32,018 bases of DNA from an uncultured Clostridium sp. GTDB taxonomy: Bacteria > Bacillota > Clostridia > Peptostreptococcales > Peptostreptococcaceae. The notes under the pieces are model-generated. The model was not told the DNA's origin. It did not search any database and saw only the letters and a program-made list of their open reading frames with translations. A program made the translations under genes and the position numbers. The first letter of the stretch is position 1. Every line of letters begins with the position of its first letter. The stretch spans positions 1-32,018 of the forward strand of contig UQCY01000010.1 in assembly GCA_900539645.1 (NCBI GenBank), in the 5' to 3' direction. Positions 1 through 27,156 of the stretch are shown one piece after another.

Positions 1-137
1 ACATTATGTATGAGAATATTAATTAAATTTAATTAAGGGAGATGGTTAAAAAATAGCTTAAGGAAAAATAAATTTTAAACTTGAGCAAATTTGTGGAATA
101 TTCGTATTTAAATGTGTAGGTAAAGGAGATGTGGAAT

Positions 138-3100
138 ATGAATAAAAAATTAATATCATTTTTAGCAGCAACAGCTATGATTGTTACGGTAAGTCAAGAA
201 TCAATGGCATTAATTGGTGAAGAAATAGAAAAGAATAATACAAGTGTAGAACAAACTAATTTATGCCAAGAATTAACAATATATGATGAAATTGATAACA
301 GTAAATATAAAGAAGAACAAAATAATGGAAATAAAAATCAAAACAATAATGTAAAAGAAGTAACAGTATCTAACTGGAATGATTTAAAAAGTAATATTGA
401 AAATGCAAGTGATAATGTTGAAACTAAAATTATTTTAGATGGTAGTAATGGAATCATAAATAAAAATAGTTCAGATGAAGCTATAATTATAAAATCTAAT
501 AAAAACATTACAATAGTAGCTCAAAATAATACAATTATACAAAGAACTTCAAATATGTCTGACAAAGGAGAGTTTGTAGTAGAAAAAGATGGAAATTTGA
601 CTATAGATGGAGATTTGATTATAGAAGCACCTAATTATGAAAATGAAGGAATGCTTACATATGCGAATTTTGTAAAAGTAAATGAAGGTGGAAATTTAAC
701 TATAAATTGTAAATTAACAGTTCATACAAGTGATGGATATAATAACAATAGTCAAGGTGATTTAGGGTTGATTCTTTGTAATGGTAATATGGTAATAAAT
801 GATGGTGCAAAAATTTCTGGGTACACAGTAAATAAGGCAAGTAGAAATGTTGAACTAGCGGCTGTTGTGGTTAAAGGAGAGAATGCTACACTTACTATGG
901 AAGGCGGAGAAGTAAGTGGAAACTATAATTTAGGAGCTAACTATGCTGAAGGAGCATCAATTCAAGTTAGAGAGGGTGCTAACTTTACTATGAATGGTGG
1001 TATGATTAAAGAAAATGGAATTGTACCTAAAGGTGAAGATTGTTGTATGTGTGGAAGTGGTGTTTTTGTAGAAGGAGAAGGGAGTACTTTTATAATGAAA
1101 TCTGGAGAGATTTCTGGTAACAAAGGAATGAAAGGTGCTGGAATTTATGCAAGTAATAAAGCAAATATAGATATAAGAAATGGAATAATAACTGGAAATA
1201 AGATACCATACAATGGCAGAAGTTGTTATGGAGGAGGAATATATGCTCAGAATACAACTATAAAAATAGGTGAAAATGGATATGTAGAAATATCTGATAA
1301 TGGTTCCAGTGAACCTGAAAATGAATATAGAAGGATACAAACTTATGGAGGAGGAATATATACAAAAGATAGTAATGGTACTATTAAAAATACAACAATA
1401 TCAAAAAACACAACAGATGGAAACAATTTACAAGGTGGTGCGGGAATATTCTTTGATAATAGTAATATAAGTATAGAAGATAGTACTATAAAAGAAAATC
1501 AGGCTGGAGAAGCAACAAACCAAGTAGGAGGTGGTATTACAGTACAAGGAGATAGCAAAATAAATTTAAAAAATGTATCTATAAAAAATAATAAAGTATC
1601 TCCAAGTGGTAGACAGTATTTTTCTGGTTTAGGTGGTGGAATATTTATATGGAATAAAGAATCTAAGATTACATTGGAAGATTGTGATATAAGTGGAAAT
1701 ATAGCTAGTAATCTAGGTGCTGGAATATTTATGAATGCGGGTAGCATAAATATAAAAGGTGATACTAAAATAGAAAAAAATAAATTTGAATCTACAGACA
1801 ATTCTCATCAAGGATATAGTAAAGGAATATTAGTAGGAGAAGGTAGTAACTTATCAATAGAAGGCGATATCTATTTAGATAAAGAAGATGACATATGCAT
1901 AGACACAAATGATACGCATATAACTATTTCAAATAAATTAAACAAAGTAAATGGAACAAATCCTATAAGTATAACAAGTGTTGATGAGGATATAGAAGAC
2001 GAAAAAACAGAAGGAACAAAACTAGTAGAATACTCAGAAGCAGCTGGTGGAGAAGCAGAAGCTCTAAAGGCTACACTAGGAAGATACTTCATACCAAGCA
2101 AATATATGAATCCAGATTTGAAAATAGGACAGAGTCAAAAGACAAAAAATGTACTAACATATGTAAAAGAACTACCAACAAACAATTTACCAGTAATAAA
2201 TGCATCAGATAAAGAAATATATGTTGGAGATAACTTCGATCCTCTAAAAGATGTAACAGCTACAGATGCAGAAGATGGAAAAATAACTCTAACTCAAAAC
2301 AACATAAAAGAAAACACAGTAGATATAAGCAAACCAGGGGAATACAAAGTAACATATTCAGTTACAGATTCAGTGGGTGCTACAACTGAAAAAACTATAA
2401 AAGTAACAGTTAAAGTTAAGAATACTGGTGGAGGCGGAACAGTAATACCACCAACTAAACCAGAACAGAAACCTGATCCAGAAGATCCAGATAGAATAGA
2501 AGGTAATGACAGAATAGAAACTTCTATAGAAGCAAGTAAAGATTTATATCCAAATGGAACAAATGCCGTAGTACTTGCAAACTGCGAAAGATACACAGAC
2601 GTACTAACTGCAGATCCATTTGCAATACAGGAAAAAGCATCAGCCCTACTAACATACAAATATGAAATACCAGAAAAAACTCTTAAAGAAATAGAAAGAC
2701 TAGGAGCTAAAAAAATCTACATAAGTGGTGGATATGATGCAGTATCTAAAAAGGTCGTTGACGAACTAGCAGCAAAAGGATATGAAATATTCAGATTCGA
2801 CGGTGTAGACAGATATGATACAGCTAGAAAAATAGCGATAAAAATTAGAGAAAAAGGAAACACAAATGCAGCAGAACTTGCTTCAGGAGAAGATTTCCCA
2901 GATGCGTTATGTATGACACCTCTAGCAGTAAAGGACCATGCACCAATACTACTAACTAAAAAAGATTCTATCCCGAAATACACAAAACAGGCACTGGCAG
3001 AATGGGATATAGAAAATATAAAAATTGGTGGTCTAGACGAAGCTGTATCATCAGAAGTTGAAAAACAGTTAAAAGCTGGATTCGAAATAGATAAAAACAA

Positions 3101-3437
3101 CAAAAAAGATTCAAACGTATACGATGGAGCAAAAGCTGTTAAGAGAATTGGTGGAGAAGATAGATATGAAACATCAGCAAAACTAGCTGCTGAATCATAT
3201 CCAGAATCAAAACTAGGTGTTTACGCAACAGGTGAGGACTTCCCAGATGCATTAATAGCTGGAAACTATGCGGGAACAAAAGAAGCTCCAGTATTATTAG
3301 TTAAAGGTGACTCATTACCAGAACCAATAGAAAAATATACAAAAGAATCTAAAATCAAAAAAGCAACTATAATCGGTGGAGTTAATGCTGTAAGTGATAA
3401 AGTATTTAACCTAATAAAAGCGATAATAAACAGATAG
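138..3437 (+). CDS. Secreted beta-helix surface protein with Ig-like domain and three CWB2 wall-anchor repeats
   Basis: Predicted exported surface protein of 1099 aa, probably an adhesin or glycan-binding factor held on the cell wall. The start is taken at 138, not the in-frame ATG at 129, because the Shine-Dalgarno AAGGAG (123-128) abuts 129 and sits 9 nt before 138. Residues 1-24 look like a signal peptide (MNKKL, hydrophobic core, small residues). About residues 70-600 are repeated Gly/Asn-rich beta-helix rungs, with many copies of GGGIY or GAGIF followed by xNxxSxIxNSTIxxN-type strands. Residues about 683-765 resemble a DUF5011/bacterial Ig-like domain (DAEDGKI, PGEYKVTYSVTD). A Pro-rich linker follows, then from about 785 three CWB2 repeats (RIEGNDRIETS, DGVDRYDTA, IGGEDRYETS), which in Clostridioides bind the anionic wall polymer. 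No catalytic residues are evident. Gln is mostly CAA and Asn mostly AAT in the helix part, but CAG and AAC dominate toward the 3' part, suggesting a mosaic gene. The next gene has the same anchor. Confidence 0.88.
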   Translation: MNKKLISFLAATAMIVTVSQESMALIGEEIEKNNTSVEQTNLCQELTIYDEIDNSKYKEEQNNGNKNQNNNVKEVTVSNWNDLKSNIENASDNVETKIILDGSNGIINKNSSDEAIIIKSNKNITIVAQNNTIIQRTSNMSDKGEFVVEKDGNLTIDGDLIIEAPNYENEGMLTYANFVKVNEGGNLTINCKLTVHTSDGYNNNSQGDLGLILCNGNMVINDGAKISGYTVNKASRNVELAAVVVKGENATLTMEGGEVSGNYNLGANYAEGASIQVREGANFTMNGGMIKENGIVPKGEDCCMCGSGVFVEGEGSTFIMKSGEISGNKGMKGAGIYASNKANIDIRNGIITGNKIPYNGRSCYGGGIYAQNTTIKIGENGYVEISDNGSSEPENEYRRIQTYGGGIYTKDSNGTIKNTTISKNTTDGNNLQGGAGIFFDNSNISIEDSTIKENQAGEATNQVGGGITVQGDSKINLKNVSIKNNKVSPSGRQYFSGLGGGIFIWNKESKITLEDCDISGNIASNLGAGIFMNAGSINIKGDTKIEKNKFESTDNSHQGYSKGILVGEGSNLSIEGDIYLDKEDDICIDTNDTHITISNKLNKVNGTNPISITSVDEDIEDEKTEGTKLVEYSEAAGGEAEALKATLGRYFIPSKYMNPDLKIGQSQKTKNVLTYVKELPTNNLPVINASDKEIYVGDNFDPLKDVTATDAEDGKITLTQNNIKENTVDISKPGEYKVTYSVTDSVGATTEKTIKVTVKVKNTGGGGTVIPPTKPEQKPDPEDPDRIEGNDRIETSIEASKDLYPNGTNAVVLANCERYTDVLTADPFAIQEKASALLTYKYEIPEKTLKEIERLGAKKIYISGGYDAVSKKVVDELAAKGYEIFRFDGVDRYDTARKIAIKIREKGNTNAAELASGEDFPDALCMTPLAVKDHAPILLTKKDSIPKYTKQALAEWDIENIKIGGLDEAVSSEVEKQLKAGFEIDKNNKKDSNVYDGAKAVKRIGGEDRYETSAKLAAESYPESKLGVYATGEDFPDALIAGNYAGTKEAPVLLVKGDSLPEPIEKYTKESKIKKATIIGGVNAVSDKVFNLIKAIINR

Positions 3438-3797: not shown

Positions 3798-6700
3798 ATG
3801 GGAAGGTTTAAGAAAGCAATTGCGACAATGTTAGTTGCTTGTATGACAATGGTTACGCCAGCGTCATTAGGTATGACTAAGGTTTCAGCTAACGAAGCCA
3901 ACAAAACAAAAATGAGTGTATACTCAATAGATGCAGGTAGAAAGTTTTTCTCAGTAAATCAGATTAAAGAAATAATCGATACTGCAAACAAAACAGGATA
4001 CACACACGTTCAGTTATTATTTGGTAATGACGGACTAAGATTAGTGTTAGATGACATGACAATTACGGCAAATGGGAAAACGTATGCGAGTGATGATGTC
4101 AAAGAAGCTATAAAAAACGGAACAAAAAAATACTATGATGATCCAAATGGAACAGTTTTAACACAGAAAGATATGGAATCTATATTAGCACACGCTAAAT
4201 CAAAAAACGTTAAAATAATTCCAGTTATAAGCAGCCCAGGACACATGGATGCAATATTAAATACAATGGAAGCTCTAGGAATAGAAAATCCAAAATTCAA
4301 CTATCAGGGAACAGTTTCTAAAACTACTCTAGACTTAAATAACGCAAAAGCAGTTGAATTTACAAAAGAATTAGTTGAAAAATATGCAAAATACTTCAAC
4401 GGAAAAGTAGAATACTTCAACTTTGGTGCTGATGAATACGCAAATGATGCAACATATCATGGACCAAGCAAAAAATCAGGATTCCTAGTACTTCAGGAAG
4501 AAAAACTATACGATGATTTCATAGACTATATCAATGATATGTCTACAATGGTAAAAGAAAACAATATGAAACCAATATGTTTCAACGATGGTATATACTA
4601 CAACCAGGACGAAAAAAATGGAACAGTAGATACAGATATAACTGTTGCATATTGGACACCAGGATTTGATAGATACTCTCCAGCTCCAGCTAAATACTTA
4701 ATAGAAAAAGGATTTAAAATACTAAACACAAACGACAACTGGTACTATGTTGTTGGACGTAACGGAGAAGGTTGGTGGTATGGTTCTGCAATGGCTACAG
4801 ACAGTATGAAAAAATTCAAATTTGACAGAGTAGTTGGAACAGCAGACAACGAAAAACCACTTCCTATAGTTGGAAGTATGGCTTGTACTTGGTGTGATGA
4901 ACCACAGAAAGAATACAAACCAGAAATAGTAAAAGGTTTAATGGAATTATTTGCTAATCAGAACAAAGATTACATATATCCAAAAGCTAACTATGCTAAA
5001 GTTGAAGATGCAATAAAAAAAGCACCAAAAGACTTAGCTAAATACACAGAAGAAACAGCATACAACCTAAACAGAGCAATAGCATCTGTAACATATGGTG
5101 AAAAATTATCAGACCAGGCAAAAGTAGATGCTATGGCAAACGAAATAACAAAAGCTACTGCAAACTTAAAAGTAGCTACAAGTAAAAAGAAAAAATCTGC
5201 TATATTCTCAATAGATGCAGGTAGAAAATATTTCTCAAAAGATCAGTTAATAGAGATAATAGAGAAAGCACATAGAAATGGATACACAGATGTTCAGTTA
5301 ATACTAGGAAATGATGGACTTCGTTTTGCACTAGATAATATGGACATAAAAGTAAATGGTAAAACATACAAAAGTGAAGATGTTAAAAAAGCAATAACTA
5401 AAGGAAACGACATATACTACAAAGACCCTAATGGAGATTACCTAACAGAAGCGGAAATGGATGAAATATTAGCCGTAGCAAAAAGATTAGGTATGGGAGT
5501 AATACCAGTAATAAACTCTCCAGGTCATATGGACGGTATATTAAATGCTATGGAAGCTTTAGGAATAAAAAATCCACAGTATAGCCATAATGGTAAAAAA
5601 TCAACAAGAACAATAGACTTAAACAATAAAGAAGCAATAGAATTCAACAAAGAATTAGTAAAGAAATATGCAACATACTTTGCTAAAAAAGGAAGCAAAA
5701 TATTCAACTTCGGTTGTGATGAATATGCAAATGACATAGACTCATCTGAAGAAGGATACTACAACGGATGGAGTAGACTTCAGGGTGAAGGAATGTACCC
5801 TAAATTTGTAACTTATGTAAACGATTTATCAAAAATAATAAAAGATGCTGGAATGAAACCAATGTGCTTCAACGACGGTATATACTACAACAAAAAAGAT
5901 GAATATGGAAAATTTGATAAAGATATAATCATATCTTATTGGACAGCTGGATGGTGGGAATTCTACACAGCTCCAGCAGCATACCTATACGACAAAGGAC
6001 ATCAGATAGTAAACTTAAATGATGGATGGTACTGGGTATTAGGAAGCTACAAAACAGAAGACAACAAACTTCCATACAAATACGAAGATGCAATGGCAAA
6101 TATAGAAAAATTTGACTACAACAAAGTTGCAGGAGATAGCTTAGGTGTTCCTACAATAGCAAGTATGCAGGCTGTTTGGTGTGATGAACCATCTAAAAAA
6201 CACGAAATGGACAAAATAATGAACTTAATGGATGCTTATTCAGCTAAACATACAGATTACCTAAAAAGACCAGGTATGAAAGTTAACGTTGCTGAAAGAA
6301 TAGAGGGTGAAACTAGATACGAAACTTCTCTAGAAGTAAGTAAAAAAGCATTCTCTAAATCAGAAAAAGCATACTTAGTATCTGGAGAAAAATTCCCAGA
6401 TGCATTAAGTGCAGCTTCTTTAACTGCTAATGGAAATGGTCCAATACTATTAGTAAATGATAAAACAATAGACAAAGTATTAGCTGAAGTAGATAGATTA
6501 AACGCTAAAGAAATAGTATTAGTTGGTGGAGGATCTATATCAGCGTCTAACAAAAACAAAGTAAAAGAATTTGCTAAATCTCACTCAGCAACTGTATCAG
6601 AACTTGCAGGAAAAGATAGATTTGATACTGCTGTAAAAGTTGCAAACAAAACTATATCTACACTTGGAAACAAAGGAAAAGTTATAATAGCTGACGGAAG

Positions 6701-7163
6701 AAACTACCCAGATGCTGTATCAATAGCACCATATGCTTCAAAAGAAGGAATACCAGTACTTCTAGCAAATGGAAATAATGTTTCAAAAGAAGTTAAAGAC
6801 TTTGTAGCTAAAAACAATATAAAAGAAGCTATAATAGTAGGTGGAGATAAAGCTGTTGGAAAAGAAGTAGAAAAACTATTCAAAAAAGTAGACAGAATAT
6901 CTGGAGCTAATAGATATGAAACATCTGCAAAAATAGCAGAAAAATTCTTTGCAAGTACAGATGGAATATTTATGGCTAGTGGAGAAGCATTTGCTGACTC
7001 ATTATCTGTAAGCTACTATGCATCACAGAAAAACACTCCAGTTGTACTTACAATACCAAACAGACTTCACGATAATACTAGAAAATATATGGAAAACAAT
7101 AAATATAAAAACTACTATGTTATAGGTGGAGAAGCAGCAGTTACTTCAAATATATTTAAATAA
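3798..7163 (+). CDS. StrH-like tandem GH20 exo-beta-N-acetylhexosaminidase with three CWB2 anchor repeats
   Basis: Secreted 1121-aa enzyme predicted to remove terminal beta-linked GlcNAc (or GalNAc) from host glycans at the cell surface. Residues 1-31 are a signal peptide ending near VSA-NE. Two homologous GH20 catalytic domains follow: about 38-390 (starts YSIDAGRKFF) and 467-810 (starts FSIDAGRKYF). Each has the family features: LGNDGLRF-type strand, INSPGHMD, and the catalytic Asp-Glu pair in FNFGADEYAND (D212-E213) and FNFGCDEYAND (D641-E642). Both pairs are intact, so both domains may be active. A helical linker (about 395-465) separates them. Wording and domain order closely resemble pneumococcal StrH, recognised from memory, but here three CWB2 repeats (from about 831: RIEGETRYETS, AGKDRFDTA, ISGANRYETS) replace the LPXTG and G5 parts. 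Codon use (CAG, AAC) matches the housekeeping genes, suggesting a long-resident, well-expressed gene. It lies downstream of another CWB2 protein but has its own promoter and terminators. Confidence 0.92.
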   Translation: MGRFKKAIATMLVACMTMVTPASLGMTKVSANEANKTKMSVYSIDAGRKFFSVNQIKEIIDTANKTGYTHVQLLFGNDGLRLVLDDMTITANGKTYASDDVKEAIKNGTKKYYDDPNGTVLTQKDMESILAHAKSKNVKIIPVISSPGHMDAILNTMEALGIENPKFNYQGTVSKTTLDLNNAKAVEFTKELVEKYAKYFNGKVEYFNFGADEYANDATYHGPSKKSGFLVLQEEKLYDDFIDYINDMSTMVKENNMKPICFNDGIYYNQDEKNGTVDTDITVAYWTPGFDRYSPAPAKYLIEKGFKILNTNDNWYYVVGRNGEGWWYGSAMATDSMKKFKFDRVVGTADNEKPLPIVGSMACTWCDEPQKEYKPEIVKGLMELFANQNKDYIYPKANYAKVEDAIKKAPKDLAKYTEETAYNLNRAIASVTYGEKLSDQAKVDAMANEITKATANLKVATSKKKKSAIFSIDAGRKYFSKDQLIEIIEKAHRNGYTDVQLILGNDGLRFALDNMDIKVNGKTYKSEDVKKAITKGNDIYYKDPNGDYLTEAEMDEILAVAKRLGMGVIPVINSPGHMDGILNAMEALGIKNPQYSHNGKKSTRTIDLNNKEAIEFNKELVKKYATYFAKKGSKIFNFGCDEYANDIDSSEEGYYNGWSRLQGEGMYPKFVTYVNDLSKIIKDAGMKPMCFNDGIYYNKKDEYGKFDKDIIISYWTAGWWEFYTAPAAYLYDKGHQIVNLNDGWYWVLGSYKTEDNKLPYKYEDAMANIEKFDYNKVAGDSLGVPTIASMQAVWCDEPSKKHEMDKIMNLMDAYSAKHTDYLKRPGMKVNVAERIEGETRYETSLEVSKKAFSKSEKAYLVSGEKFPDALSAASLTANGNGPILLVNDKTIDKVLAEVDRLNAKEIVLVGGGSISASNKNKVKEFAKSHSATVSELAGKDRFDTAVKVANKTISTLGNKGKVIIADGRNYPDAVSIAPYASKEGIPVLLANGNNVSKEVKDFVAKNNIKEAIIVGGDKAVGKEVEKLFKKVDRISGANRYETSAKIAEKFFASTDGIFMASGEAFADSLSVSYYASQKNTPVVLTIPNRLHDNTRKYMENNKYKNYYVIGGEAAVTSNIFK

Positions 7164-22622: not shown

Positions 22623-23513
22623 CTACAAATTGATTGCATGTTCTTCAATGAATTTTTTAAATTCATTTATAAGTGGTATTTCATAAGAAGATTTTAAATA
22701 AGCCATATATACAATATTTTGCCAGTCTAAGTCTGATATTTCTATAGATTTAACTCCCTTTAGATTTACAGTATTGTTTTCTGGAACTATTGAAATTCCA
22801 AAGTCACCAGTTACTAGAGAAGCTATAACACCTAAATCATCAGTCTTGTAAGATATATTTGCCCGGCATTCTTTCTTGTTTAAATAAGAAGATAGTTTTT
22901 CTGAAAGTGTATGATTTTTAGTATAAAGAATGTGATTATATTCTAATGTGTCGTCTATAGAAACAGATTCTTTATCGGCTAGAGGGTGCCCCTCTGGAAC
23001 TAGAAGTATAGCATTCTGTTTAAATACAGGTGTATACTCTATATTTTTTTCATTTATTCTATTAGAACAGAATATAAAATCAAAATTCTTTGAATATAAC
23101 CCCTTGATTAATTCCTCAGTAGATTCAGCATCGTAGTAAAATTTAAAGTCGATGTTTTTCCCAGTATGTTCATTTAAAAATTTTCTTGCCAGATCCGGAA
23201 TAAATGAAGCAGCCATATTTTTATGGAAAGCTATATCTATACATCCTTCCCCTATTTCTGAAAGGTGTATTGAGTTGATGCTTTCATCAATAAGAGCTAA
23301 AGCCTTCTCTATGTCTGTTAAAAAATTCTTCCCAGCTCTAGTGAGCACTACATTTCTACCTTCTTTTTCAAATAGGCGAATATTAATCTCTCTTTCTAGT
23401 GAAGCTATAGCATGACTAAGACTAGGCTGAGTGATTGAGAGCTGCTCAGCAGCTTTTGTGTAGTGTTCGAGATGGGCTAAAGTAACAAAATATTTAAGAT
23501 GATATAAGTTCAT
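22623..23513 (-). CDS. LysR-family transcriptional regulator
   Basis: 296-aa LysR-type regulator. The N-terminal winged HTH (residues 1-60) has the expected LKYFVTLAHLEHYTKAAEQL and SQPSLSHAI-type recognition helix (ITQPSLSHAIASLE). The rest is a periplasmic-binding-like effector domain (IDIAFHKNMAA, GDFGISIVPE). Length is standard. ATG 23513 has an AGGAGA ribosome site. It lies downstream of cysK-cysE on the same strand but beyond a terminator. A role in sulfur or cysteine control (as for CysL or YtlI types) is a guess from position only; the effector cannot be read. A -10-like TATAAT (minus strand, 23618-23613) and a palindrome AATAATTAATTATT (23595-23608) lie upstream and could be its promoter and self-operator. 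Confidence 0.9.
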   Translation of the reverse strand: MNLYHLKYFVTLAHLEHYTKAAEQLSITQPSLSHAIASLEREINIRLFEKEGRNVVLTRAGKNFLTDIEKALALIDESINSIHLSEIGEGCIDIAFHKNMAASFIPDLARKFLNEHTGKNIDFKFYYDAESTEELIKGLYSKNFDFIFCSNRINEKNIEYTPVFKQNAILLVPEGHPLADKESVSIDDTLEYNHILYTKNHTLSEKLSSYLNKKECRANISYKTDDLGVIASLVTGDFGISIVPENNTVNLKGVKSIEISDLDWQNIVYMAYLKSSYEIPLINEFKKFIEEHAINL

Positions 23514-23859: not shown

Positions 23860-24396
23860 TTATAGAGCGATATTTACTTTTTCTCCGTTTAGTTTAACTA
23901 TTTTTGCTGGTATTCCAACAACAGTTGCGTTTTCTGGCACGTTTTTAAGAACTACCGCATTTGCACCTATTTTAGAGTTATCCCCAATTTTAATATTTCC
24001 AAGTACTTTTGCACCAGTTGCTATAGTAACGCCATTTCCAACTGTAGGGTGTCTTTTTCCTTTATCGTGTCCTGTACCGCCAAGAGTTACCTGATGAAAC
24101 ATCACTACATCGTCGCCGATTTCAGCTGTTTCGCCTATTACAACACCGTTTCCATGGTCTATAAATAATCTTTTTCCAATTGTAGCACCTGGGTGAATTT
24201 CTATACCTGTAAGAAATCTAGCTACCTGAGATATAAATCTAGCTAAGAATTTTAACCCCAGATTGTTTATAAAATGTGCTATTCTGTGGAAAAATATCGC
24301 GTGAATTCCAGGGTAATTTATTATAATGCTCAGGGCATTTGTCGCCGCTGGGTCCTGTGCTTTATATGTGTTTATTATATTTCTAAAACTGCTCAT
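23860..24396 (-). CDS. cysE: Serine O-acetyltransferase
   Basis: 178-aa enzyme that acetylates L-serine with acetyl-CoA to give O-acetylserine, the substrate of cysteine synthase encoded just upstream. The left-handed beta-helix hexapeptide repeats run from about residue 65 ([33 protein letters not shown]) to [17 protein letters not shown]. The catalytic His region [17 protein letters not shown] is present. It is the short form lacking much of the N-terminal helical domain of E. coli CysE, as is common in Firmicutes. A GGAGG ribosome site lies 7 nt before ATG 24396. It follows cysK after 95 nt with no terminator between, so both should respond to the cysK leader. Confidence 0.96.
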
Positions 24397-24491: not shown

Positions 24492-25400
24492 TTATTTGTA
24501 TAAATCTGTTGAAAGGTATCTTTCTCCATTATCGGGAGCTATAAATAGAACTTTCTTGCCTTTACCAAGTCTTTCAGCTGTTTTGATTGCCGCTGCAAGT
24601 GCTGCACCACCTGAAATTCCAAGCATAACTCCTACATCTGATGCTGATTTTATAGCGTTTGAATAAGCTTCTTCAGATGAAATCTGTTCCACTTTATCTA
24701 TTAAATCTGTATCTAGTATTGATGGTATAAATCCTGCACCTATACCCTGAAGTTTGTGAGGAGATGGGCTACCACCTGAGATAACAGGAGATAAATCTGG
24801 CTCAACTGCTATTATTTCGATATCTTTGTAGTTTTCTTTAAGTACGCTTGCATTTCCAGTTAATGTGCCACCAGTACCGACACCAGCTACAAATGCGTCT
24901 AAGTTTTTAAAGTCTTTTATGATTTCTATTGCTGTGGAGTTTTTGTGAGCTTCTGGATTAGATTTATTATTGAACTGATCAAACATTTTGTATCCTCTAG
25001 TTTCTACTAATTCTTCTGCCTTTGCAATAGCTCCATTCATTCCAAGTTTTCCTGGAGTAAGGACTATTTCTGCACCATATGCTTTTAAAATCTTCTGTCT
25101 TTCTATACTCATAGTATCTGGCATAACCATGACAGCCTTTAATCCGTTTGCAGCTGCAGCCATTGCAATTCCTATCCCTGTGTTTCCACTTGTAGGTTCT
25201 ACTATAGTATCACCTGATTTTATAGTTCCATCTAGTAGCATTTTTTCCATTATGAATGCTGCAATTCTGTCTTTTATTGATCCTCCTGGATTGAAGAATT
25301 CAAGCTTTCCGTATATTTCAGCGCTGTTTTCAGTTTCGAACTCTTTAAATCTAAGAACCGGTGTATTTCCTATAGTTTCAGTTATTTTGTTGTATATCAT
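24492..25400 (-). CDS. cysK: Cysteine synthase A (O-acetylserine sulfhydrylase)
   Basis: 302-aa PLP enzyme that forms cysteine from O-acetylserine and sulfide. The PLP lysine is K43 in NPGGSIKDR. The Asn/Ser/Thr loop PTSGNTGIGIA binds substrate and GVGTGGTLTG binds the cofactor phosphate; SGGSPSPHKLQGIGAGF is also conserved. Length is typical. GGAGG lies 8 nt before ATG 25400. A small hairpin GAGC/GCTC lies just upstream of that ribosome site. Expression is probably controlled by the poly-Cys leader and terminator hairpin at 25585-25857, which lie on the same strand between the promoter at 25926-25954 and this gene. Confidence 0.97.
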   Translation of the reverse strand: MIYNKITETIGNTPVLRFKEFETENSAEIYGKLEFFNPGGSIKDRIAAFIMEKMLLDGTIKSGDTIVEPTSGNTGIGIAMAAAANGLKAVMVMPDTMSIERQKILKAYGAEIVLTPGKLGMNGAIAKAEELVETRGYKMFDQFNNKSNPEAHKNSTAIEIIKDFKNLDAFVAGVGTGGTLTGNASVLKENYKDIEIIAVEPDLSPVISGGSPSPHKLQGIGAGFIPSILDTDLIDKVEQISSEEAYSNAIKSASDVGVMLGISGGAALAAAIKTAERLGKGKKVLFIAPDNGERYLSTDLYK

Positions 25401-25584
25401 AATATTTTCCTCCGTCTGAGCCTTTTTGCTCTATTATTTTTATTTGAATTTTGTTTTGAAATTTAAAATAAAGATATTTTGGCGTGAGTTAGACAGTCTA
25501 AAAAAATTATGATTATCTTTTAAAGAATTGTAGATTTACATCTGTTTGATTAGTAATTCTAGATTTGATTGGATTTTTGACATT

Positions 25585-25703
25585 AAAAAACTGTTTCCAT
25601 AAAACATACTCGTAAAAAGCAAAGGCTAAAATATATCTAAAGGGGATGATATGCAAAAATTATTATCAGGCCTGCTACGAGTATTTATTTTTTATGAAAA
25701 CAG
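25585..25703 (-). terminator. Attenuator terminator hairpin in the cysK leader
   Basis: Read on the minus strand, 25703-25690 (CTGTTTTCATAAAA) pairs with 25604-25591 (TTTTATGGAAACAG) over 14 positions with one G-U. Then 25684-25676 (ATACTCGTA) pairs with 25614-25606 (TACGAGTAT), and GCA/GGCC pairs extend it inward, with a further GATAATA/TATCATC stem in the loop. The 3' arm runs directly into TTTTTT (25590-25585), as in an intrinsic terminator. It lies between the poly-Cys ORF and cysK, about 185 nt before the cysK start. Confidence 0.8.
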
Positions 25704-25810
25704 CATTAGAAATCTATTTAATCAATAGATTTGAAATTCAATTTTAAAATTTATCAAACTAAAGAGTAACACCGTTTTTAGAGAAAGTCAAAGTCCCGCC
25801 ATAAAAAATA
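25686..25810 (-). promoter_or_regulatory. Predicted antiterminator pairing in the cysK leader
   Basis: On the minus strand TATTTTTTATG at 25810-25800 (inside the poly-Cys ORF, codons 16-20) is perfectly complementary to CATAAAAAATA at 25696-25686, with a flanking G-U. The latter overlaps the 5' arm of the terminator stem (25703-25690), so the two pairings exclude each other. A separate 9-bp hairpin AAATCTATT/AATAGATTT (25710-25732) lies between them. The pairing is seen in sequence; its use as antiterminator is inferred. Confidence 0.6.
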
Positions 25811-25857
25811 CTGTTATTTAATTGTTTTAAATTGTAGCAACAACAACAGCAACACAT
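25759..25857 (-). CDS. Poly-cysteine leader peptide (upstream ORF of cysK), 32 aa
   Basis: Short ORF in the cysK leader encoding MCCCCCCYNLKQLNN then SIFYGGTLTFSKNGVTL, stop TAG. Codons 2-7 are TGT TGC TGT TGT TGT TGC. AAAGGA at 25874-25869 is spaced from ATG 25857 like the AGGAGG sites of fba and cysK once the core is aligned. It lies about 60 nt after the predicted start of a TTGACA/TATTAT promoter on the same strand and upstream of a terminator hairpin and cysK. Runs of the regulated amino acid are the hallmark of attenuation leader peptides, and poly-Cys upstream ORFs are known before sulfur genes in Actinobacteria. The peptide is therefore probably a sensor of charged tRNA-Cys rather than a working protein. 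ATGs at 25868 and 25862 are in another frame that gives only an 11-13-residue peptide. Confidence 0.8.
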   Translation of the reverse strand: MCCCCCCYNLKQLNNSIFYGGTLTFSKNGVTL

Positions 25858-25925
25858 AGCATGACCATTCCTTTCTTTTCTAAAATTTATCTATTTAAGA
25901 TATGTGTTATCCTTACTTTAATTTG

Positions 25926-25954
25926 ATAATATACCCAAATTAAAAATATGTCAA
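25926..25954 (-). promoter_or_regulatory. Promoter of the cysK leader
   Basis: On the minus strand TTGACA (25954-25949) and TATTAT (25931-25926) are separated by 17 nt. Predicted start is near 25919, giving a leader of about 520 nt before cysK. It lies directly after the fba terminator, which makes cysK-cysE an independent unit. Confidence 0.8.
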
Positions 25955-25960
25955 GATTAT

Positions 25961-25994
25961 AAAAAAAAGAAAGTGTAGCAAAAGCCACACTTTC
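25961..25994 (-). terminator. Terminator after fba (minus strand)
   Basis: On the minus strand 25994-25984 (GAAAGTGTGGC) pairs with 25979-25969 (GCTACACTTTC) around a 4-nt loop, then runs into eight T's. Confidence 0.92.
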
Positions 25995-26025
25995 AAATAA
26001 ATTTCAAATTGAAATCAAAATACAA

Positions 26026-26952
26026 TTAGTTTATAGAGTTTTCTGATCCTAGAACGTTATCTATTTTGCTTTCTACAACAGCCTGTATAGCGTCTTTACC
26101 AGCACCTAAGTATTTTCTTGGGTCGAACTGAGATGGGTTTTCAGCTAAGTATTTTCTTATAGCTGCAGTCATAGCTAATCTTAAGTCAGTATCCATGTTT
26201 ATTTTGCAAACTGCCATTGAAGATGCTTTTCTTAACATGTCAACTGGAACACCTTTAGCACCAGCTATATTTCCACCGAATTCATTACAAGTAGCAACTG
26301 ATTCCTGATCAACTGCAGAAGCACCGTGAAGTACTATTGGGAATCCTGGTAATCTGTTCTGTATTTCTTCTAATATGTCGAATTTTAATTCAGCTTCACC
26401 TTTGAATTTGAAAGCACCGTGAGAAGTACCTATAGCTATAGCTAATGAGTCAACTCCTGTTCTTTCAACGAATTCAACTGCTTCGTCTGGGTCAGTGTAT
26501 TTGTGTACATTTGAGCTAACTTCATCTTCAACACCTGCTAATACACCTAATTCAGCTTCAACAACAACTCCTCTTTCGTGAGCGTAGTCAACAACTTCTT
26601 TAGTAACTCTTACGTTTTCTTCGAAATCGAAGTGAGATCCATCTATCATAACTGAAGTGAATCCAGCATCTATACAAGATTTAACTGTTTCGAAGTTTGG
26701 ACCGTGGTCTAAGTGAAGAGCAACGTCTACACCTATTTCATCAGATGCAGCTTTTACCATTTCAACTAATGTATGAGGTCCAGCATACTGTATAGCTGAT
26801 TTAGAAGCCTGTATCATAACATATGAGTTTTTAGCTTTTGCTCCTTCTAATACACCCTGTAACTGTTCTAAGTCACTTATGTTGAATGCACCTATAGCAT
26901 ATCCACCTTCGTAAGCTTTTTTAAACATTTCTTTAGTAGTAATTAAAGCCAT
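26026..26952 (-). CDS. fba: Class II fructose-1,6-bisphosphate aldolase
   Basis: 308-aa Zn-dependent aldolase of glycolysis and gluconeogenesis. The start is ATG 26952 with AGGAGG 9 nt upstream; a longer in-frame start at 27090 has no such site and adds an unrelated hydrophobic stretch, so it is rejected. Class II features: HLDHG at 80-84 (catalytic Asp82, Zn ligand His83), ELGVLAGVED, GTSHGAFKF and LHGASAVD. Gln, Phe and Asn codons are strongly biased (CAG, TTC, AAC), as expected for a highly expressed gene. A minus-strand TATAAT at 27004-26999 is a likely -10, with a weak -35. It is monocistronic with its own terminator. Confidence 0.96.
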   Translation of the reverse strand: MALITTKEMFKKAYEGGYAIGAFNISDLEQLQGVLEGAKAKNSYVMIQASKSAIQYAGPHTLVEMVKAASDEIGVDVALHLDHGPNFETVKSCIDAGFTSVMIDGSHFDFEENVRVTKEVVDYAHERGVVVEAELGVLAGVEDEVSSNVHKYTDPDEAVEFVERTGVDSLAIAIGTSHGAFKFKGEAELKFDILEEIQNRLPGFPIVLHGASAVDQESVATCNEFGGNIAGAKGVPVDMLRKASSMAVCKINMDTDLRLAMTAAIRKYLAENPSQFDPRKYLGAGKDAIQAVVESKIDNVLGSENSIN

Positions 26953-27156
26953 TTTTAAATTCCTCCTATAAACTTTTAAAAATTTATCCATCAAATATAT
27001 TATACAGAGAAAAACAAAAAAGGTATAGACTAAATTGAAAAACAGTACGTTGCAAACATTTTCTTTTTGAAAAAATGAAATTTGTAACAAAATTGTTTCT
27101 TGAATAAAAAAATAAAATTAAATAATATATTAAATATGAAATAAAAATTAAAATGT

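Follow-up and report, generated by a model that had tools for sequence, protein, structure and literature searches.

The cysteine genes cysK and cysE of this uncultured Clostridium sp. lie behind a leader encoding a peptide with six consecutive cysteine residues, and this leader is probably a classical ribosome-mediated cysteine attenuator, which would switch cysK-cysE on when cells run short of charged cysteinyl-tRNA. This mechanism is predicted from comparative sequence analysis and folding, and both lines of evidence support the same interpretation in a first-pass annotation of this DNA. The elements described there, namely a promoter, a ribosome-binding site, an MCCCCCC open reading frame (ORF), a hairpin followed by six U residues, and cysK with cysE behind it, are all present as described, as judged by sequence and by family profiles. 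Within the window (the whole stretch of 32,018 nucleotides that was analysed) the locus comprises the following features.

25969..25994, minus strand: intrinsic terminator of the upstream class II fructose-bisphosphate aldolase gene (ORF 26026-27090)
25954-25926, minus strand: sigma-A-type promoter TTGACA-17-TATTAT, 11 of 12 consensus positions matched
25904..25918, minus strand: 5' end of the untranslated leader, which by folding would pair with the ORF end (~25772-25752) when the ribosome is absent
25863..25874, minus strand: ribosome-binding site AAAGGAATGGTC, as read from the sequence
25857-25759, minus strand: leader ORF of 32 codons, MCCCCCCYNLKQLNNSIFYGGTLTFSKNGVTL, with its ATG at 25857 and its stop at 25761-25759
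25837..25854, minus strand: six Cys codons (codons 2-7), the proposed stalling site
25800..25810, minus strand: antiterminator part a, 5' strand (codons 16-20), pairing with 25696-25686 over an exact 11 bp
25767..25778, minus strand: antiterminator part b, 5' strand (codons 27-31 of 32), pairing with 25708-25697 over 12 bp
25686..25708, minus strand: shared strand, which pairs with parts a and b or serves (25703-25690) as the terminator 5' arm
25703-25591, minus strand: terminator hairpin with a 14-bp stem, 25703-25690/25604-25591 (one G-U pair), and U6
25635..25649, minus strand: motif UCAUCCCCUUUAGAU in the loop of the terminator hairpin, shared by the window, L001, L002 and L003 at 14 of 15 positions
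25585..25604, minus strand: terminator 3' arm (25604-25591) and six U residues (25590-25585)
24492..25400, minus strand: cysK, cysteine synthase A (TIGR01139, 402.5 bits, cut-off 350.95)
23860..24396, minus strand: cysE / epsC, serine O-acetyltransferase (NF041874, 244.5 bits, cut-off 150; TIGR01172, 240 bits, cut-off 210.65)

The transcript start was assumed to lie 7 nt behind the -10 box, and 184 bases separate the U tract from the cysK start. The window contains a single ATG with four Cys codons directly after it, and 300 dinucleotide shuffles contain none. The terminator hairpin is about 113 nt long, with a second stem and a large conserved loop, and folding z-scores are -3.7 for the terminator region and -5.3 for the leader. 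No Rfam family reached its gathering score anywhere in the window, including the T-box (RF00230) and the SAM and other riboswitch models. A scan of 25380-26000 at E values up to 10 returned ten matches, none at gathering score and the lowest E being 0.76, with the T-box absent, in agreement with the earlier statement that there is no T-box here.

Comparison within Peptacetobacter

The genus sample consisted of three Peptacetobacter genomes, G001, G002 and G003 (P. hominis, with the cysK locus L002), of which G001 is nearest to the window, sharing 38% of sampled 31-letter words. In all three genomes, the order of fba, promoter, MCCCC(CC) ORF, hairpin, cysK and cysE recurs in diverged sequence, and the ATG with four Cys codons is found in one copy per genome, always before cysK. 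The promoter is kept across an alignment of the window with L001, L002 and L003, the ribosome-binding site has the counterparts AAAGGTGGTA in G003 and AAGGAGTGAT in G002, and terminator counterparts are present in L001, L002 and L003. The run of Cys codons numbers six in G001 and four in both G002 and G003, in leader ORFs of 32 codons in G001, 30 in G003 and 29 in G002, the peptides beginning MCCCCCCYNSKQ... (32 codons), MCCCCNSKYNK... (30 codons) and MCCCCFITSKK... (29 codons). The Cys frame is the only one open in all sequences, its codon 3 varying between TGC and TGT. In G003 the Leu frame runs into a stop after its third Leu codon, and neither G002 nor G003 has the upstream ATG of the Val/Ala frame.

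Behind the Cys run the peptides diverge, while the pairing of the ORF with the terminator arm is kept. The first-pass annotation had noted that 25810-25800 is complementary to 25696-25686 over 11 nt. This helix is real, with an exact 11-bp match, but it represents only half of the structure, the second half being 25778-25767/25708-25697. Folding with a ribosome masked on the Cys codons joins parts a and b into a 23-bp antiterminator that occupies the whole terminator 5' arm. The shared strand is nearly identical in the window, G001 and G002, and the core TTTCATAA of the terminator 5' arm is kept across the genus. In G002, the same two helices form with 9 and 12 pairs; relative to the window, two pairs are changed on both sides, three on one side, and one 2-nt deletion is matched on both strands, with 0 of 21 compared pairs broken (one bulged G002 base being left out of the count). 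The G003 antiterminator is built from unlike sequences, ORF codons ~18-22 pairing with a stretch that holds the 5' arm of the last terminator. A check for covariation, which the earlier annotation had suggested, found the antiterminator pairs of the window and G002 kept through sequence changes; covariation is nevertheless thin, because there are only three diverged sequences, among which the G003 antiterminator does not align with the rest. Absence of the Cys run or of the pairing from relatives had been named as evidence that would count against an attenuator; the run is present in all three genomes and the competing pairing is kept, in G003 through other sequences and another terminator.

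Folding in three ribosome states

Without a ribosome, the 5' leader is predicted by folding to pair with the end of the ORF, in which case the antiterminator would be blocked and the terminator would form. Ribosomes would presumably stall on the Cys codons for lack of cysteine, and a ribosome held on codons 2-7 would leave 25810-25800 and 25778-25767 free to pair with 25708-25686 before the 3' arm is made. With the antiterminator formed during the stall, polymerase would pass into the genes, provided that the structure lasts long enough for polymerase to escape, and cysE is likely to be carried on the same transcript as cysK. A ribosome at the stop codon would cover part b, and the terminator would form. 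The first-pass annotation had conceded a weak point at this step, as the complementary segment seemed to be free again once the ribosome reached the stop codon; the objection falls away because part b of the antiterminator is covered by the ribosome at that position.

Stalled-state folds ran from the edge of the ribosome on the Cys codons to a point before the terminator 3' arm, and all folds ended at the terminator. With the number of 3'-arm nucleotides for comparison picked per species after the state probabilities had been seen, terminator probabilities with no ribosome, a stalled ribosome and a ribosome at the stop codon were 0.947, 0.041 and 0.964 in the window (8 nt of the 3' arm out), 0.896, 0.045 and 0.958 in G002 (6 nt out), and 0.965, 0.000 and 0.937 in G003 (4 nt out). 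Among 400 shuffled leaders for each sequence, 5 for the window, 17 for G002 and 5 for G003 (1 to 4%) agreed with the switch on all three criteria, and 3, 25 and 5, respectively, equalled the real contrast; these fractions are guides and not exact probabilities, because the comparison point was chosen afterwards and the sequences share descent. For pairing between the ORF segment and the terminator 5' arm, an arm chosen after the folds had been seen, fractions of 0.001 (window), 0.001 (G001), 0.005 (G002) and 0.02 (G003) of 1000 dinucleotide shuffles and 0.005, 0.004, 0.005 and 0.022 of 1000 codon shuffles did as well as the real sequence, the window and G001 being near-identical. In the absence of a ribosome, the antiterminator probability was 0.01-0.03 in the window and 0.00 at the start in G002. 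In G003 it was 0.49, dropping to 0.01 with 4 nt of the 3' arm.

As further 3' arm emerges in the stalled state, the terminator reaches a probability of at least 0.95 from 14 nt in the window, 14 nt in G001 and 10 nt in G002, and the antiterminator holds only in G003 (0.98). For the window, the corresponding energies in the stalled state are -40.3 kcal/mol with the 3' arm unpaired vs -45.0 kcal/mol, and those with the ribosome at the stop codon are -24.6 vs -37.2 kcal/mol. Since the terminator wins with the full 3' arm even when the ribosome is stalled (except in P. hominis), the switch must be kinetic; and since the terminator is favoured once more of the 3' arm is out, polymerase must leave before strand exchange. 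In P. hominis, L002 additionally carries, 35 bases behind the stop of the leader ORF, an extra perfect terminator-like hairpin, CCGTCGTATATACGACGG followed by TTTTTT, without a counterpart in the aligned sequences of the other species. Its helix forms in every ribosome state (P 0.998-1.0), and the model therefore does not explain control in P. hominis.

Searches outside the genus

Pattern searches were extended to the family (ATG + 4 Cys, 13 of 71 genomes matched), to a sample of the order (GGAG + ATG + 3 Cys, 37 of 393) and to a sample of the class (AAGG + ATG + 4 Cys, 4 of 391), each count including genus genomes and each pattern missing leaders with other starts or later Cys runs. All 54 of 54 loci were read, comprising every place outside the genus as well as the genus loci L079 and L090, and no further free short ORF of the leader design was found among them in the family, order and class samples. 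Leaving aside L076 and the two genus loci, all matches sit within open frames 120 codons long or more, a length that is poor evidence for a gene where the GC content is high. L076 (G165) encodes, on the minus strand, a 93-aa MCCC protein that contains His and Cys residues, has a ribosome site of its own and is perhaps metal-binding.

In addition, 37 CysK loci were scanned on the cysK strand for short ORFs (10-60 aa) in which a stretch of 7 codons holds 4 Cys. Two turned up outside the genus, one in L012, which has a ribosome site, and one in L022, which lacks such a site and lies far upstream. The L012 ORF (2408-2476; G019, another genus of the family) is a 22-aa Cys-run frame, MTDKEDCCGCCCSYTILKERSC (MTDKEDCCGCCCS...), with a GGAGG ribosome site. 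It overlaps the last codons of cysK and precedes cysE, and its end is part of a long perfect hairpin, in which the terminator scan accepted no U tract; it is perhaps another Cys-sensing leader or a small Cys-rich protein. Within these samples, only one genus has the poly-Cys leader before cysK, and one more has a Cys-run ORF, arranged differently. The search upstream of cysK/cysE in Peptostreptococcaceae that the first-pass annotation had proposed thus recovered the design in 3 of 3 Peptacetobacter genomes and nowhere else in the samples.

Cys T-box leaders serve the same regulatory aim, but they sense uncharged tRNA directly and contain no ORF. In L006 (G022, another genus of the family), tandem T-boxes at 789-1027 and 1122-1358 precede cysK, both with TGC (Cys) specifiers according to a simple pattern. 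Across L001-L030 and L051, Rfam scans placed a T-box upstream on the cysK strand in L006 and in L019 (735 bases away), and none before cysK in Peptacetobacter (L001-L003). Elsewhere, the three Peptacetobacter genomes have 16-19 T-box matches each, and among 30 genus T-box loci no Cys specifier was found in the part readable by the simple pattern. Replacement of a T-box by the leader is not established; L006 and L019 are the only scanned loci with a T-box before cysK.

The conserved loop, alternative explanations and known systems

The loop of the terminator hairpin has the consensus TCATCCCCTT(T/G)AGAT, or UCAUCCCCUU(U/G)AGAU in RNA (UCAUCCCCUUKAGAU), and is fixed in three species while the surrounding stems are rewritten. 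There is one exact copy per genus genome. Four further exact matches occur in 4 of 68 other family genomes; three fall within coding frames, and the fourth (L088) belongs to an intergenic hairpin whose neighbouring genes are unrelated. The loop is left unexplained by the attenuator model and may be a protein site or a second signal. More tentatively, and as a possibility that at present appears rather doubtful, Peptacetobacter may have evolved its own cysteine attenuator, doing the work of the tandem Cys T-box of a related genus, and joined to it a fixed-loop hairpin that carries a further signal.

The same conservation, with 14 of 15 loop positions identical, could also mean that the loop is the real sensor, as a protein site or small aptamer, and that the leader ORF only sets timing, and the motif hairpin of G003, which stands apart from the terminators, fits such a role. 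This is nonetheless improbable, as conservation is no less strict for the Cys run than for the motif, the motif has no Rfam match, and each genus genome holds a single exact copy. The motif resembles the anti-Shine-Dalgarno end of 16S rRNA. Pairing of the motif with the ribosome-binding site of the leader was considered, this site being the best upstream partner in L002 and L003, yet the energies are no better than those of shuffled motifs, 406-959 of 1000 being as good in the four sequences. A function as a ribosome site on the other strand was likewise rejected, since the frames behind AAAGGGGATGA differ between species when inspected by eye. Outside the motif, the complement AAAGGGGATGA occurs once each in G002 and G003 and is absent from G001, which is not above a reversed control pattern; with this distribution, there is no common trans partner.

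A second explanation, and quite an unlikely one, holds that the terminator is constitutive and leaky, that the small Cys-rich product of the ORF has a separate function, for example in metal or thiol binding, and that no switching takes place. In its favour, the stalled antiterminator loses at equilibrium in three of four sequences, and the order contains further small Cys-rich proteins that have ribosome sites (L076 in G165 and L012 in G019). Two observations speak against it, namely the divergence behind the Cys run under a maintained pairing with the terminator arm, and the placing of the ORF, in 3 of 3 genomes, between a promoter on one side and a terminator with cysteine genes on the other.

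The classical amino-acid attenuators of Proteobacteria are those of trp, his, leu and phe. The attenuator proposed here shares with them a leader peptide rich in the pathway amino acid (4-6 Cys codons, predicted to be translated), a predicted intrinsic terminator between the ORF and the first gene, and alternative structures with, by prediction, default termination when untranslated. Folding further points to an exclusive antiterminator freed by stalling, kinetically and not at equilibrium except in G003, and to its blockage by a ribosome finishing the ORF (terminator probability 0.96 at the stop codon). It differs from them in its control codons 2-7 at the very start, the length of its terminator, the second stem, the conserved loop and its occurrence in Clostridia. 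Poly-Cys leaders in mycobacteria are reportedly leaderless, to go by the title of a 2020 paper by Canestrari et al.

Among cysteine leaders, the uORFC-8-2 motif is described, in the part of the source drawn on here, as lying before cysS in Rhodobacterales, with Cys codons 14-15, an intrinsic terminator and predicted ribosome-mediated attenuation (PMC8632094). Cys codons in a leader ORF and an intrinsic terminator are common to both; the present leader, with Cys codons 2-7, cysK and a clostridial host, is set apart from that description in codon position, gene and lineage. Poly-Cys upstream ORFs in Actinobacteria, which the first-pass annotation had mentioned as known, do precede cys operons according to the portion of PMC1262725 consulted, where no conserved terminator hairpin is described in Mycobacterium. 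That 2005 set shares the Cys-codon run before cysteine genes; in the same portion the run lies near the stop codon, whereas here there are a ribosome site, a terminator and an antiterminator. A leader acting through translation or Rho, with the intrinsic terminator secondary, is proposed for these Actinobacteria leaders, Rho being suggested where terminators are lacking (PMC1262725, in part) and translation attenuation being stated for M. smegmatis cysteine genes (PMC13236596, in part), and the 184-base gap before cysK would suit it, but it is very unlikely here, given that folds ending at the terminator predict an intrinsic terminator and a competing antiterminator for all three species.

In Firmicutes, where T-boxes are the rule, regular amino-acid leader peptides have a precedent in the His leader peptides before hisS/hisZ in bacilli, which differ in amino acid (histidine), in genes (synthetases) and in lineage (Bacilli), as far as described in the excerpted text (PMC2965389). 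Before it, according to the same text of this 2010 survey, leader-peptide systems other than the ermC type were known only from Proteobacteria and Actinobacteria (PMC2965389). The BmrC/BmrD leader of Bacillus subtilis is also a case of ribosome-mediated transcription attenuation in a Firmicute, but the excerpts describe a drug transporter that answers to antibiotics and not an amino-acid gene (PMC4191407). No report of a cysteine leader peptide in Firmicutes was found in the literature searched, which covered few subscription journals. For amino-acid genes, T-boxes and riboswitches are the textbook regulators in Firmicutes. If Clostridia do have a cysteine leader that switches fully between three states, this would show that ribosome-based control arises also in genomes rich in T-boxes. 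Furthermore, with terminator and antiterminator sequences that differ among three species and a predicted logic that is kept, the locus offers a small, directly testable case of a switch rebuilt with its function kept.

Two further observations concern the surroundings of the locus. Behind cysE, on the same strand, lies a gene for a LysR-type regulator (window 22623-23513, minus strand), the NCBIfam matches shown being below their cut-offs. On the plus strand, 129-3437 and 3798-7163 encode neighbouring proteins of about 1100 aa with partial matches, below cut-off, to NF033435 (clostridial S-layer).
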